A stretch of DNA of 64,000 bases from Alcanivoracaceae bacterium (GTDB lineage Bacteria > Pseudomonadota > Gammaproteobacteria > Pseudomonadales > Alcanivoracaceae): positions 496,001 to 560,000 of the forward strand of contig JARGPN010000009.1 in NCBI GenBank assembly GCA_029213045.1. The letters are read 5' to 3'. Shown here piece by piece: positions 14,253-38,053 of this stretch. Position numbers and translations under genes: made by a program. The notes below the pieces were generated by a model that saw only the letters and a list, made by a program, of their open reading frames with translations, did no database searches and was not told the origin of the DNA. Within the stretch, counting starts at the first letter, position 1. The number at the start of each line of letters is the position of its first letter.

Positions 14253-14894
14253 CTATTTCTGATGAATAAAACTCGCTATCGCTTCAACGCTACTGCGCAA
14301 ATTATCGCCCCATAACACCCCGGATTTTTTTCGGGGTGTTAAATCATGATCACCATCGTCCAACCAGTGCATTGTCACCGACGAAGGCATGTCATACAGC
14401 GCCACTTCTTCCTGACGACCAAAGGGGTCGCGCTCACCCTGACAAATCAGCACGGGCGCGCGCAAATGTGGAAAATGAGAAAGACGGGTCTTCTCCGGCT
14501 TACCTGGCGGATGGAACGGATAGCCTAAGCATAGAACGCCGCGACAAGGCCTAGCACTGTCATCAGCCTCATCGACAACAAGATGGGTCGCCATGCGACC
14601 GCCCATAGACTTCCCGCCGATAAATATATTCGTCAGCCCTCCAGCCGCTTGCGCCGCAGCGTGAAACGCCTCCATCAAAATGGGTTGCCGATCCGGCGGA
14701 CGTTTTTTTCCATCGTGACGACGCTGCGCCATGTAGGGAAATTCGAATCGCGCGACCGACACATCATATTGCTGCAATGCCTGCGCGATACTATTCATAA
14801 ACTCGCTATCCATCGGCGCGCCTGCGCCATGCGCCAACAACAATACTGGGCTCGATGGCGTCGCTTTATCCCAGAGAAGCTCAGGGGCCTTCAC
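14253..14894 (-). CDS. Alpha/beta hydrolase, KANL3/Tex30-like family
   Basis: A 213-residue serine hydrolase. It has LLLAHGAGAPMDSEFM (oxyanion region), FIGGKSMGGRMA (GxSxG nucleophile elbow), a QGERDPFG loop holding the acid residue and a late DDGDHDLTP with the catalytic His. These are characteristic of the bacterial KANL3/Tex30-like dienelactone-hydrolase relatives. The frame extends upstream inside the neighbouring gene; the GTG at 14894 shares a base with that gene's TAG (TAGTG), so coupled translation was taken as the true start. The substrate is unknown. Confidence 0.85.
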   Translation of the reverse strand: MKAPELLWDKATPSSPVLLLAHGAGAPMDSEFMNSIAQALQQYDVSVARFEFPYMAQRRHDGKKRPPDRQPILMEAFHAAAQAAGGLTNIFIGGKSMGGRMATHLVVDEADDSARPCRGVLCLGYPFHPPGKPEKTRLSHFPHLRAPVLICQGERDPFGRQEEVALYDMPSSVTMHWLDDGDHDLTPRKKSGVLWGDNLRSSVEAIASFIHQK

Positions 14895-15196
14895 TAGTGT
14901 GTCATCACCGGCTGCACAAGCACCCATGGCGCGATCACTACGGCCCACATATCTTGCTGCGCGTCAGACCATTGTAAGGCTTGCGCTTCACTCACCAGCG
15001 CGACCCGCTGATCCAACATAAGCCTTTGGATTTCATCCGCGTTGTCATCGGCAAAAAATCCTGCAACGTCAATTAAATCTAAATCCGGCGACACAAACAC
15101 AGTATTGCCGCGGGCAAAATGCGGCTGTAGCGCCAACCAAGAAATCCGCGCAGTTTCACGGTTGAGACGAGTTTTCAGATCAGATTCGTCAGTCAT
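14894..15196 (-). CDS. DUF2288 family protein
   Basis: A small 100-residue protein. It begins MTDESDLKTRLNRETARISW and contains HFARGNTVFVSPDLDLIDVA and WAVVIAPWVLVQPV, matching the DUF2288 family of small cytoplasmic proteins. The ATG at 15196 has AGAGGTG upstream and was preferred to the ATG at 15250. It forms a two-gene operon with the Tex30-like hydrolase through a one-base stop/start overlap. No function is known. Confidence 0.82.
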   Translation of the reverse strand: MTDESDLKTRLNRETARISWLALQPHFARGNTVFVSPDLDLIDVAGFFADDNADEIQRLMLDQRVALVSEAQALQWSDAQQDMWAVVIAPWVLVQPVMTH

Positions 15197-15289
15197 ATAC
15201 ACCTCTAAAACAAGGTCATTCGAGGCGCGCATGGTACCGAGTAACGGCATGAGAGGAAATTATCCATTATGGATCAGAAAACATCGGAC

Positions 15290-15316
15290 AAAAAAAACCC
15301 ACTCAGGCGAGTGGGT
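15290..15316 (-). terminator. Rho-independent terminator of the candidate sRNA
   Basis: On the minus strand, ACCCACUC pairs with GAGUGGGU around a GCCU loop and is followed by eight U residues. No minus-strand coding gene lies upstream within 2.9 kb, so the terminator implies a non-coding transcript here. Confidence 0.85.
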
Positions 15317-15424
15317 CGAAAATGGAGGGTATTTATTAAAAAGGTCTCTGAGCTAGGCTCTCCAGCATGTCGATATCACGACGAGGCGGAGCCAACATCC
15401 ATGTTGGCGGTGCGTCCATGCACA
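15290..15424 (-). ncRNA. Candidate CsrA/RsmA-sequestering small RNA (Rsm/Csr type)
   Basis: Read on the minus strand, a compact set of features resembles RsmY/RsmZ/CsrB RNAs. The first hairpin, GUGC[AUGGAC]GCAC at 15423-15410, has a hexaloop of the form ANGGAN. The second, GCCAAC[AUGGAU]GUUGGC at 15408-15391, has the same loop type on a 6-bp stem. A third GGA lies in GCUGGAGAGC near 15361. An AU-rich stretch follows, then a perfect 8-bp terminator hairpin with eight U residues. A GATACT -10-like box (15435-15430) would place the start near 15424, giving about 135 nt, close to known Rsm RNAs. Both loops also fit the AYGGAY pattern of the TwoAYGGAY RNA motif. No clear GacA box was found. Confidence 0.68.
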
Positions 15425-15718
15425 AGCAGAGTATCCCGAGGCCATCACAGGCGATGCCGGAGATTGCCGACAACCCTTGTAGGAAATTCACCCTGATCAT
15501 TGAAAGCCCGCTAATACTTGCCTAGAGGCGCCATATAGACCCTCGCAGGCAGAGCCGGTGATATAAGCAAGACTAACGGCTCAGATAGACCGACAGGGGT
15601 ACATACAACATATTGCATTTGCCTCATACCGTGCCTAGAGTCAAATGGTACTAATTTCGTATCACAGCATGGATGGCTGATGGAAAACTTATCCCTCTTA
15701 CGCACAACACAGGTGCCG

Positions 15719-18610
15719 ATGACGCTCTTTACGTCTCTGCGGTCCACGCTCGCCATTTTTTCTGTGCTGATACTTACCCATTTTATCTGCGCGCCCGTGC
15801 ACGCCAGCGAATCCTTGATCCTGTCACCTGACACTGTCCAAGTGACTCCCTATAAAGTGCTGTCCAGCTTCTGCCAGCCCGCCGACGAAGCGGCAAGTTT
15901 GTCGGACGTCGTCTTGCAGATGAATAAATGGCCTTGGAAGGAATCGCGCAGAACCGACTTGCCAAATTTCGGTTTTACATCAGATGTCTGCTGGGTGAGC
16001 TTTAATTTAACCAATAACAGCCAGCGCAAAGACTGGTACGCCATGGTGAACTATCCGCTACTCGGCGAAGTTGAATTGATTGCCTTCGAGCCCGCGCTGC
16101 CTGCGCGACCTATTGTCGAATATCGTACCGGCAGTGATTTACCTTTTTCTAATCGGCCTTACGAGTTCACCGAATTTGTTTTTCCACTCAAACTCGACAA
16201 ACAAGAAAATGTCACTGTGCTGCTGCGCGTCGCTGGCGGCTACAGCGTCCAGGTACCCATTCAAATCATAACCGGCGAAAGACTGATACGCACGCAGCAA
16301 CTGACAGTGCTTGTACACGGATTTTTCTTCGGCGGCATGCTAGTGATGCTGTTTTATAATTTATTCTTATATTTCTCCATTAAAGAAAAAGCCTACCTCC
16401 TGTATGTCTTCTGGACCTTTGCGATAACCTTGTTCCAAGCAATTCTGCATGGGTTTGCGCAACACTACATTTGGCCAAACGCCACCTTTTTTAGCCAGTA
16501 CGCAATGATGCTAGTGCTGCCCTTTATCGTCATTCTTCCGCCACTGTTCACACTGCATTTTCTATCGCTTGATATTCGCGAACCCCGATTGACATTTTTG
16601 CTAAGAACGCATGTCAGAGTGGGGGTTGGTCTATTGCTTTTACTGCCCTTCGTAGATCGCGCCTACATGGTGCCACTCGAAGCCTTCTGCATTATTTTAA
16701 TGGTTCTTACCGTCTTCAGCGTCGGCGTTATTCGTATGCGAAAAGGCGACCCAGACGCACGTTACTTCACCATTGCATGGACCTGCTTTCTCGCCGGCGC
16801 TGCCATTATGGCGGTGAGCAAATATGGATTAATACCGCGCAATGAATTCACCGAGAACTTAGTACAAACAGGTACTTTCCTAGAAGTGATTCTGCTGTCA
16901 CTTGCATTAGCAGATCGGATTAATCGTCTCAAAGAAGCGCACTCATTGTCAGTGCAAGATCGCGCACAGGCGGAGATGGAAGCGTTTAAAGCCAGCGCGC
17001 ACAATCAAGCAAAAAGCGATTTCCTTGCCACCATGAGCCATGAAATTCGCACACCTATGAACGGTGTATTGGGCATGTCCGACCTATTGCGTCGCACCGA
17101 ACTCAACCATCAGCAATCGCAATACGTGGACACAATTTACGAATCCACCCAGTCACTATTGACCGTCATTAACGATATTTTGGATTATTCGCGCATTGAA
17201 GCGGGCAAACTTGAGATGGAGAAGATTGATGTCTCTGTCGAACATATGATCGACGATTGCGTATCGCTGTTTGCCTTACAATCCATAGAAAAGAACCTGC
17301 CCCTATATACGTTTATTGATAGCCGAGTTCCCGCCGTCATTCGCACAGACCCCGTGCGCCTGAAGCAAATCATCACAAACCTACTAAGCAATGCGTTCAA
17401 ATTTACTGAAAGCGGGCATATAACACTGAGCGTGTCTCAGCGTAACGCACCGAAAGACAGTGATGTGTGTGAACTCCTGTTTGAAGTCACAGATACCGGC
17501 ATCGGGTTAGATTCGAATCAGCAGCACAATTTATTCAAAGCGTTCAGCCAACTCGATACGCGCAGTACGAGACGTTTTGGTGGGTCTGGTCTAGGGCTGA
17601 CCATCAGCCGTCGCCTTTGTGAAATGCTTGACGGCGAAATTGGCGTTAACAGCTCACCGGCAAGGGGCGCGACATTTTGGTTTAGCATCAAAGCGAAAGG
17701 GCTGCGCCACTATCAGGCACCCGCCGGACTGCAGGGCAAACGTGTTCTAATTATCGACAGCGAAACTCCCTATGTATTGAGTATTTCGCAAATGCTTGGT
17801 CGCTGGAATATGCACGCCACCGCCATTCGTACCGTAGAAGAAGCGACAGCGCTCCTTAAGAATGCCGGCGATCTGCCGACGCCCTTTGACGTGGTGTTAA
17901 TTGAACACAAGCAAGTGTCACAATTGTCGCAACTGGCAGCCTGTTTTGAAGGTACTTCTCCGGCGATTATGATCAGTCACATCACCGGCGCTGCACCTGC
18001 GAACATTAATTTGGGAGAGTTTGTTTTAGTTGAAAGCCCAGTGCGCGCCCAACGCTTGCAAGAAGCAATGGCCAACCTACTTTGCGATAACGACGACACC
18101 CAAGACCAATCTATTCCACTCGATGATCGGCTTAAATTCCCCCACGACATACGCGTACTCGTTGTAGAAGATAACCCCGTCAACCAGTTGGTGATCGACA
18201 GCATTCTAAAAAGCGCCCACATCAAAGCCAACTTAGCCCATAACGGTGCGGAAGCGCTGCACGAAACAAACAAGCTCAACAACAGTTGGGATATCGTGTT
18301 TATGGACTGCGAAATGCCGGTCATGGACGGCCTTGAAGCAACGCAGCGAATTCGTGAAATGGAAGCTGAACGAGGACATAAAAATAGTTGGGTCATTGGA
18401 TTATCTGCACATGCGCTTGCAGACTATATTCAAAAAGCACGCGGCGCTGGGATGGACGACTACCTAGCCAAACCAGTCACTCGCGAAGATGTACTCAGTG
18501 CTTTAAGACGTGCGGTGTTAAGGACGAGAGAAACCAGCGACGCGGACAAGGTAAACGATGCCGGCAAGGCTCAAGTGGTGCCACTACGCTCTCCGCGTCG
18601 AGATCGGTGA
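15719..18610 (+). CDS. RetS/LadS-like 7TMR-DISM hybrid sensor histidine kinase
   Basis: About 963 residues. From ATG 15719 the protein begins with a signal peptide ending APVHA; ATG 15680 in the same frame is an alternative start. The order is a periplasmic DISMED2-like domain (about 30-175), a seven-helix 7TMR-DISM region (about 195-400), HisKA with His441 in [10 protein letters not shown], and HATPase_c ([23 protein letters not shown]). A receiver-like domain follows with Glu729 where the phospho-Asp should be, then an intact receiver with Asp863 in [10 protein letters not shown]. Tandem receivers make it RetS-like rather than LadS-like. In Pseudomonas such kinases tune GacS and Rsm RNA levels; here a candidate Rsm RNA is divergent from it. 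The end overlaps the convergent kinase gene by 27 bases. Confidence 0.9.
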
Positions 18611-20728
18611 TCGATTCATCATACGCACGCACGCATCCAGCAAATGACGAGCGCGAATTGGCTTGCCTAAGAACTCATCACAGCCCGCCTCTAAACAACG
18701 CCGCCGATCTTCCGCCATCACATTTGCGGTGAGCGCCAAGATAGGCCCTGTAAATCCTCGGGTGCGTAATTCTGCTGCCGCGTCAAACCCGTCCATAATG
18801 GGCATCTGCATATCCAACACAATCAGATCAAAATCGTCTTCTTCGGTGAAACGCTCTAACGCTTTTACGCCGTTATCTGCTTCTGCAACGACAAACCCAG
18901 ATTGGCTTAACACACGCATTACCAGCAATCTGTTGACCTGATTATCGTCCACCACCAACACGCGGCCTGTGGCACGAATCGCAGGTAAGCGCTGGCTTTT
19001 CATTTCCGCAGCCAGTGCTTGCTCTGGCTGAACGCGTTTGCTGTTATCAGCCGCTAACGTTTGGATATGCAACTGAAAGGCACTGCCCTCTCCGACTTTA
19101 CTGCTCACGGAGATATTACCGCCCAGCGAGCGAGAGAGTTGACGCGCAATAGCAAGGCCCAACCCTGAACCACCAAAGCGACGGGTATGAGATTCATCTA
19201 CTTGCGAAAACGGTTCGAATACATTCGGCAGCGCAGCTTCAGGAATGCCAATGCCGGTGTCCGCGATTTCCACATGGAGCACCGACTGCAATCCATCTTC
19301 CCATTGCACTCGAACATCTACGCCGCCGTTTTCAGTGAACTTAATCGCGTTGCCAATCAAGTTGCTTAATATTTGCCGCAACCTAAATGCGTCTGTGAGC
19401 ACTTCCGCCGGCACTGCAGTCATATACTGCAACGACAAGCGAATATCTTTTTGCTTCGCTCGGAGTAAATGGCTGTTCAACACATCTTTCATTAACGCTG
19501 GCAATTCGCACGGCTGACGATCAACGCGAACTTGCCCTGCCTCAATGCGAGAAAGATCAAGTACATCGCTGATCAACGCCATAAGGGCGTCGCCATTTTG
19601 CTGAATGATACTGAGGTAGCGTTGACGCTCTTCTGCAGAAAGCGATGGATTTTCCATCAACTCGGTATATCCGAGAATCGCCGTCATCGGCGTGCGAATC
19701 TCGTGACTCATGTTCGCTAAGAAGAGACTTTTAGCACGATTCGCCGCCTCTGCCCGCTCGCTGGCTTGCGCTAAAGACTGTTGCGCATCGTTAATGTGAT
19801 CGACCATCGCATTAAAGTCTGCGGCCAGCTCGGCTAATTCGTCACTACCTCGTACTCGAATACGCTGCTTCAGATCACCGCCTTGGGCAATGCGACGCAC
19901 CGCCTGATGGAGGATCGTCAGACGCCCAAACACCTGACGCTGCACGAACCAATACACCAATGTTGACGTTAGAAACGCCACCACAATTACCGCCAGCACC
20001 ACAGACCAAATAAGCGGCGCGCCGCGCTGATAAATTTCGCGCTCTAACGTGACCTGACCGCGCATGACACTACGCTGCTGGTAATCAAGAACTGGGAAGC
20101 TCGCACTGAGCGTCACATCATCTATCGCAACAATATGGGATTTACGCGGCGCATCGGCCTGCGCGGACTGCAACGACACATCCAATCCGGTCACACCGGA
20201 AAGCTCCATTGCCATCTGACCATCAAGGGCAATGGCAAATAAGGCTGCACCGCAATCGGCAACAGGATGCATCGCAAAGATATAATTCTTTTGATTCAGC
20301 GATACGACACCCCAGAGCGGATAGCAGCCCCGTTCCGCATAGGTGGCGTAAAGATCGACAAGCGTAGGGTCTTGAGGGCCGGCATCACCGCGCAACATCG
20401 TCGGCTCACCCGCGGGCGAAAAAATCACCACTCGATCTAAGCGCAAATTATCCGGCGCCTCGCCAGGCACCATCGGCACAACGTCAGATTCGCCGGTCAC
20501 TAGCGCATCAACGCGGTGCATCTCTGCCCAGTCGCGAGTCCGCGCATATAAGGTCGTAAAAGTTTGTAGAAACGCAGATTCAACACGGGCCAGCTCTCGC
20601 CGCGCCGCATCATCTTCAAAATCGGACACAGCCGGTGTCAGTATTTGATACACAGCGACCGTACCGATCAGCACCGCCCCCAAGGCGGATGCATAAAAAA
20701 GACCCAACAGTTGCCGTTTCAACTTCAT
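18584..20728 (-). CDS. Hybrid histidine kinase with CHASE4-like sensor, HAMP and receiver
   Basis: A 714-residue membrane kinase. TM1 (about 8-28) and TM2 (about 240-265) flank a periplasmic domain of about 200 residues with CHASE4-like character. A HAMP domain follows, then HisKA with His342 in [10 protein letters not shown], HATPase_c ([23 protein letters not shown]) and a receiver with Asp639 in [10 protein letters not shown]. There is no HPt domain, so the phosphoryl group must pass to a separate HPt or to the receiver's own output. It is convergent with the RetS-like kinase and divergent from metG. It is related in layout to GacS/BarA, but lacks the C-terminal HPt of those proteins, so it is not simply GacS. 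Confidence 0.88.
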
Positions 20729-37799: not shown

Positions 37800-37822
37800 T
37801 CTTCGGCCTTGAACTCATAACA

Positions 37823-37983
37823 GTTATTAGACAGCGTGCTATGTTTCCAGAAAAAAGAAGCATGCTGTCTAACTCTGCTTCATTCTGGTTCGTTGTGGTA
37901 ATTATTCAATAAAATCAATGCTTCGCGTGTAAGCCATTTCTTACAGCCCTGACAAACATAGCAGGGGGGTGCTGTCTAATTAT
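37823..37983. mobile_element. MITE-like inverted repeat or decayed IS at the array boundary
   Basis: The inverted ends share ATTAGACAGC and TGCTATGTTT (left at 37826-37846; right at 37954-37980, where a GGGGGG run is inserted). A third GCTGTCTAA copy lies inside at 37864. The left end stops one base from the R' core of the first cassette, so the element appears to have removed the upstream recombination site. A short Cys-containing peptide is encoded inside, but no transposase. Confidence 0.55.
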
Positions 37984-38053
37984 TTATACTGTACATATGG
38001 ACAGTATTTTATATACGACGCGATTCACTTGATGCTTCACCCTTTATTCAGCC

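Follow-up and report, generated by a model that had tools for sequence, protein, structure and literature searches.

A predicted RsmX-type small RNA upstream of a DUF2288 gene

The stretch of 64,000 nucleotides analysed here (the window; source genome G000, 3.17 Mb in 16 contigs, representing a genus of the Alcanivorax family) very probably encodes, on its minus strand, an RsmX-type, GacA-activated sponge of CsrA with two conserved binding sites, with expression and CsrA binding predicted from sequence comparison. The existence of the small RNA itself has a high probability, and the mechanism proposed for it is an ordinary one. The RNA is predicted at 15289..15425 (minus strand), where the 5' end is inferred and a match of model R1 spans 15433-15289. 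It is situated in the intergenic region between a DUF2288 gene (14894..15196, minus strand; Pfam PF10052, E 3.4e-29), which lies downstream of the RNA terminator, and a hybrid histidine kinase gene (15680..18610, plus strand), which is divergent from the RNA.

On the minus strand from 15423 to 15289, hairpins with the loops AUGGAC and AUGGAU are followed by a terminator. Hairpin 1 (15410..15423; GTGC-ATGGAC-GCAC) has 4 bp and a CsrA-site-like loop, hairpin 2 (15391..15408; GCCAAC-ATGGAT-GTTGGC) has 6 bp, and the stem of the intrinsic terminator (15296..15317) is followed by a T-run to about 15289. Both hairpins and the terminator form in the free fold of 15430-15288 (MFE -42.8 kcal/mol; z -2.16; 6 of 200 shuffles as stable), in which an additional closing A-U pair reduces the loop of hairpin 2 to UGGA. 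ANGGAN hexaloops on at least 4 bp are singly not rare, with 6 in the window compared to a shuffle mean of 7.2. Two such hairpins at a distance of 14-30 nt occur once in the window, with the terminator behind them, and in none of 100 dinucleotide shuffles. The two ANGGAN hairpins and the terminator, which a previous sequence-only reading had placed on this strand, are thus borne out. A third GGA named in that reading (15363-15361, CUGGAG) is predicted to be paired (0.08 unpaired) and is without counterpart in the alignment of relatives.

Conservation and microsynteny in the Alcanivoracaceae

Since a direct DNA search for relatives of the RNA returned 1 of 57 genomes, namely the source genome itself, conservation was traced by synteny. 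The gene order of the same-genus comparison genome (G001) is identical to that of the window, and the best local alignment between their intergenic regions covers the core with both loops, GCATGGA.GCACC..CAACAYGGATGTTG, with a score of 38 compared to a maximum of 33 in 500 shuffles. Between both species, two pairs of stem 2 differ on both sides (by eye), and stem 1 is weak in G001, with two pairs.

Inspection of the 330 nt upstream of DUF2288 in 37 genomes revealed two loops at the right spacing in 22 of them, 20 by script (among them the hand-placed G012) plus G058 and G035, both without a scored terminator. Alignment A3 comprises 20 of these 22 sequences, G057 and G063 being omitted as identical to G060. 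It shows 98.6% paired cells and eight pairs with two-sided change, a value as high as this occurring in 0 of 500 shuffles. The inner two pairs of hairpin 1 form in 20/20 rows and are invariant, the outer two in 9 and 12 of 20 rows, respectively. Two-sided changes were observed in three of four stem pairs of hairpin 2 and in the terminator stem as well. The signal is weaker for an alignment without the window genus (18 rows, with three more rows dropped and G015, G004, and G025 added): three two-sided pairs remain (2/500 shuffles as high), and the corresponding figures for the covariation score and for further pair types are 114/500 and 481/500 shuffles.

R1 matches of at least 35 bits were obtained for 34 of 46 Alcanivoracaceae genomes, one per genome, at a fixed locus and within 1 kb of DUF2288. 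Including G010, with a match beside the kinase gene at 33.5 bits (20.9 in the family-wide run), the RNA is present in 35 of the 46 genomes, 34 times beside the DUF2288 gene and once beside the kinase gene. Together with the two-sided stem changes, this supplies the conservation of loops and stems in related genomes that the sequence-only reading had named as a check. Of these carriers, 15 are outside the training set of R1, although G057 and G063 among them each duplicate a sequence used for training. With the limit relaxed to E 0.01, R1 matches 41/46 genomes, but the additional matches are weak and mostly located elsewhere. Six loci of the family with weak secondary R1 matches (at most 31 bits) were rejected because the two hairpins are absent by eye; two of the six represent the same locus in G014 and G009.

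The 11 genomes without an R1 match of at least 33 bits are G005, G006, G007, G009, G011, G014, G016, G019, G024, G027, and G030, of which G006, G007, G016, and G030 are fragmented or incomplete. G006 contains a weak candidate only (18 bits), and R1 gives nothing above 28 bits in G014. Likewise, R1 does not find the RNA at the kinase gene of A. xenomutans, A. balearicus, and strain 24 (L079, L069, and L074). The gene is present in the laboratory strain A. jadensis T9 (L077).

The R1 match in the window scores 43.8 bits, but the window sequence belonged to the training set, and for this reason model R2 was built without the window genus. R2 matches the window at 15433-15338 (terminator excluded) with 20.9 bits and E 8e-4, the runner-up in the window reaching 8.5 bits. 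Its best matches in 75 kb are G001 (E 1.6e-4, alignment shifted), followed by the window. Order-wide, R1 at E 1e-4 matches 23 of 293 genomes, 10 of the Alcanivoracaceae and 13 outside the family, the latter with at most 33.6 bits. Among 10 inspected outside loci are some Rsm look-alikes, and three (L291, L296, and L299) appear spurious by eye.

GacA box and promoter

In 33 of the 35 carriers the first ANGGA is preceded, at a distance of 64-68 nt, by the start of a half-site C[CT]TACA, compared to a background of about 0.011 per 40 nt. The other two, G004 and G012, possess a near-complete palindrome TGTAAG-N6-CTTAC at the place of the box; in the weak G006 candidate, considered as a 36th row, the half-site is absent. 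The putative box of the window, CAGGGTGAATTTCCTACA (15478..15495, minus strand), has a degenerate left half and the right half CCTACA, which begins 64 nt before the first ANGGA. By a weight matrix derived from 33 boxes (24 distinct) of genera other than that of the window, it takes rank 5 among the 127,966 positions of the window and rank 1 within 15201-15679; on the same matrix, the rsmX UAS published for P. brassicacearum (PMC7911923) reaches 23.8. Its left half is poor, with 0/6 positions of TGTAAG (by eye), and the whole box agrees with the published rsmX UAS at 10/18 positions. A -10-like region, GATACTCT (15428..15435, minus strand), was inferred by eye beside TAAAGT/TATAGT of the relatives; a generic sigma-70 scan of 14800-15900 found no promoter.

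The degenerate left half in the window genus allows for a different reading, namely that the RNA is a Gac-independent Rsm sponge whose box has decayed in this genus and has lost GacA binding. Such Gac-independent sponges have been reported, namely RsmV and RsmW. The left half is indeed lost in the window, and by eye the box of G001 retains 3/6 positions of TGTAAG. However, both species retain the right half and its spacing as part of a conserved block GTGAAT..CYTACAAGGRTTG, and the G001 box ranks first of 21,672 matrix positions. Decay of the box is considered unlikely, and GacA activation is the preferred reading.

Considering the 33 boxes outside the window genus, the left half is NAT[AG]GC in 22 (11 TATGGC, 3 TATAGC, 2 AATAGC, and 6 further), the others being 3 ATGAGC and 8 of TGT type (genus g3, G020, G004, and G012). 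The Pseudomonas rsmX promoters (17 of 19 loci above the cut-off, two dropped) show 6 TATAGC, 4 AATAGC, 4 TATGGC, 2 AATGGT, and 1 TGTAGC, so that 14/17 are of the NAT[AG]GC form. For fdxA-linked rsmZ (30 loci examined), 23 of 24 left halves are TGTAAG and one is TGTAGG. In P. aeruginosa, the rsmY box is located at -75 and the rsmZ box at -196 (PMC4950607). In form and position, the boxes of the family resemble those of Pseudomonas rsmX more than those of fdxA-linked rsmZ; for the window box, it is the position that fits the rsmX type (about -60 to -76).

Relation to the DUF2288 gene and to repeats

DUF2288 was found in 46/46 family genomes, most of which have it as the steady neighbour of the RNA. 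In the window, the terminator immediately precedes DUF2288 in the same orientation, and the linkage of both in 34 genomes would likewise fit a cis-acting leader or attenuator of a DUF2288-hydrolase operon, in which transcription stops at the terminator and read-through is altered by CsrA or another factor. This is very unlikely. In G015, G003, and G025 the RNA and DUF2288 are convergent, and thus the RNA cannot be a DUF2288 leader there; in G010 they are located on different contigs. Furthermore, in each of the two species of the genus, a motif CGGTAC(A/C)AT directly preceding DUF2288 looks by eye like a separate promoter.

An untranscribed palindrome or REP-like repeat, acting at the DNA level only, has an even smaller chance. 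REP-looking GGA palindromes do exist in Alloalcanivorax and even score with Rfam TwoAYGGAY, but the RNA is represented by a single match of at least 35 bits per genome, with a fixed locus, a fixed promoter box, and two-sided changes in the terminator stem. A small ORF of 27 codons starting in loop 1 (ATG GAC GCA ... TAA) is open in the window and, at 20 codons, in G001 (by eye), but this reading is practically negligible, as a ribosome-binding site was not seen before the ORF in the window and the first loop is AAGGA or ACGGA in 16/20 rows, with loss of the ATG.

Predicted CsrA sites and trans-acting partners

Two ANGGA sites are kept across the relatives. The GGA-to-GGA spacing is 16 nt in 28 of the 35 carriers, 17 in two, 18 in three, and 19 in two, the window having 17 nt. 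Bridging by a single CsrA dimer is reported to be possible for sites at distances of 10-63 nt, the optimum being above 18 nt (PMC7652899), and the spacing in the window falls short of this optimum. The 10-mer of hairpin 2 in the window, ACATGGATGT, agrees at 9/10 positions with the CsrA SELEX core ACARGGATGT (consensus in PMC7652899). For the ACANGGANGT-like 10-mers of all carriers, 10 positions match in 4/35, 9 in 20/35, 8 in 10/35, and 6 in 1/35. GGA2 is predicted to be unpaired (probability at least 0.5) in 20/20 homologues, GGA1 in 4/20, with 0.93 in the window. The mostly paired GGA1 in 16/20 free folds counts against two exposed sites in every species.

In addition to the locus, its structure, the stem changes, and the conservation of the box, the computed evidence includes genes for the trans-acting partners. 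The genome encodes CsrA (E 6.2e-25), GacA by a gene beside uvrC (312 bits, over the cut-off of 280), and a GacS/BarA-like kinase of 909 residues with 791 bits, below the BarA cut-off of 890. With the conserved locus, the two-sided stem changes, the GacA box, and these partners, the former assignment to Rsm/Csr-type small RNAs is well supported.

Transcription of the RNA would depend on GacA. Phosphorylated GacA would bind the box at 15495-15478 and turn on a minus-strand transcript of about 135 nt, which would run from just before hairpin 1 to the terminator. With a distance of 17 nt between them (16-19 nt in the family as a whole), the two GGA loops would mimic CsrA targets and capture CsrA/RsmA, possibly with a stoichiometry of one CsrA dimer per RNA bridging both sites. 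Due to this capture, CsrA-repressed mRNAs would become translated.

Relation to known Rsm and Csr RNA families

With gathering cut-offs applied, no Rfam family matches anywhere in the window. Relaxing the limit to E 10 yields six weak matches in 15200-15700, none of which is an Rsm/Csr family and none of which exceeds its own cut-off. The models RsmY, RsmZ, CsrB, and TwoAYGGAY, with which the previous reading had suggested a search, gave no match at 15290-15424, and neither did RsmX. RsmX was not matched at E up to 1 on 17 loci including relatives either, and its gathering cut-off of 56 bits (RF02144) is not reached by the RNA of the window. PrrB_RsmZ (RF00166) has 0 matches in the genome and misses the fdxA-linked RNA of this genome, too; TwoAYGGAY (RF01731) has 0 matches in the genome and none at the RNA locus at E up to 10. 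In the opposite direction, R1 matches the rsmX place in 17 of 19 tested loci (E 1.8e-5 to 0.06), these being the rsmX loci above the Rfam cut-off out of 25 Pseudomonadaceae loci. R2 scores some rsmZ loci at about 20 bits, so that RsmX and RsmZ are not distinguishable by model similarity alone.

With RsmX of Pseudomonas (RF02144; RsmX-1 and RsmX-2 of P. brassicacearum, as described in PMC7911923) the Alcanivoracaceae RNA shares the form of the box (TATAGCGAAAGGCTTACA and alike), the place of the box (in 17 rsmX loci it precedes the first GGA by 62-76 nt), a 5' GGA-loop hairpin soon after the box, a terminator, and a small size (about 110 nt for RsmX in PMC7911923). In contrast to RsmX-2 with at least three GGA sites (PMC7911923), two are conserved in the Alcanivoracaceae RNA, which moreover remains below the Rfam thresholds and is located beside DUF2288. 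Neither DUF2288 nor a homologue of the kinase was found in the short flanks (at most 1.5 kb on each side) of the 25 Pseudomonadaceae loci.

For A. dieselolei, 549 sRNAs were reported, two of which are CsrA-related: CsrR1, located in the leader of hfq, and CsrR2, next to fdxA (PMC9788540). Judged by its place, CsrR2 corresponds to the fdxA-linked RsmZ, which is accompanied by a GacA box in 24/30 loci, including the window genome (contig 5). This RNA and the one described here have a GacA box and GGA motifs in common, but the fdxA-linked RsmZ is a separate gene at another locus, with about seven GGA and a box TGTAAG-N6-CTTACA situated 170-185 nt before the first ANGGA in 16/24 loci (in the remaining eight, by eye, the distance refers to an ANGGA that precedes the RNA). 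At L207/L159 of the source genome and at L169 of G001 its GacA box is perfect, and RF00166 fails to recognise the RNA. The terminator hairpin of the fdxA-linked RNA (L159/L207) carries a GGCAGGATGCC loop on the same strand, as in most relatives inspected, and thus the terminator itself may bind CsrA.

TwoAYGGAY RNA shares two hairpins with AYGGAY loops. It differs in that the window genome contains no match, and the matches inspected in relatives (L003, L004, L005, and L006) resemble repeated palindromes instead of single RNA genes, with 13 matches in G029 alone. Neither of the two CsrA-related sRNAs of the main text of PMC9788540 is the DUF2288-linked RNA, and literature searches on Alcanivorax, covering mostly titles, returned no report of it. 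As far as found, an RNA of the RsmX type has not been described before in Alcanivorax and related oil degraders.

The neighbouring hybrid kinase

The kinase gene has a match in 46/46 family genomes, over most of its length in 44 (all except for G007 and G012). It is the direct divergent neighbour of the RNA, as previously proposed, in both genomes of the genus, whereas in four others (G017, G029, G028, and G008) a long, PhoD-like ORF lies in between, assigned to PhoD by Pfam in the two tested (G017 and G029).

The previous reading had called the kinase RetS-like, which holds for its domain layout and not for orthology. Pfam domains are 7TMR-DISMED2, 7TM, HisKA, HATPase_c, and one REC. The RetS layout has two REC domains, of which Pfam misses the first; residues about 680-800 resemble a degenerate REC by eye. 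Even at E 10, the sensor region does not match the RetS sensor of known structure, and the kinase core scores 159 bits to RetS versus 222-239 bits to other kinases. For two of the nearest Pseudomonas relatives, comparison of the cores to RetS gives only 168 and 170 bits, and one of their sensor regions matches RetS weakly (E 0.057); by these low scores the relatives do not seem to look like RetS either. A KEGG-based listing, however, names RetS in Alcanivorax (PMC7366521), which runs against this reading. On the basis of these comparisons, RetS identity of the kinase is not supported, although the kinase might nonetheless provide input to Gac. At 18584-20728 lies the gene of another hybrid histidine kinase (HAMP, HisKA, HATPase_c, and REC), in convergent orientation to that of the first kinase, whose 3' end it overlaps.

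Implications and further observations

If the preferred reading is true, marine oil degraders, a group with culturable species, would possess two GacA-type CsrA sponges, this RNA and the fdxA-linked one already published. It would also mean that compact Rsm RNAs escape Rfam, and the presence of only two conserved sites would provide a simple natural test of one-dimer CsrA capture. Taking this further, it is tempting, though rather doubtful, to speculate on a minimal sponge: an RsmX lineage reduced to two GGA sites bridgeable by one CsrA dimer, passed on throughout the Alcanivoracaceae in the vicinity of a hybrid kinase of DISM type, which might provide local Gac input, with sensor and output RNA forming one module.

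Compact RNAs with two or three ANGGAN hairpins were also observed in other families of the Pseudomonadales (L293, L294, L297, L300, L290, and L292). Several have GacA-like boxes (TGTGAGATATGTCTCACG in L293), and none matches Rfam at E up to 1.

Four of five exact GacA boxes in the genome, including one at 37928-37945 of the window, were rejected as sRNA candidates due to their location inside a repeated cassette-like element. This element (37800-38000 in the window; L197, L205, and L206) contains TGTAAG-N6-CTTACA, a palindrome around GACAGCATGC, and the end TACTGTACA. Four copies were seen in the genome by eye, beside different small genes, and perhaps they belong to an integron-like or other cassette system.
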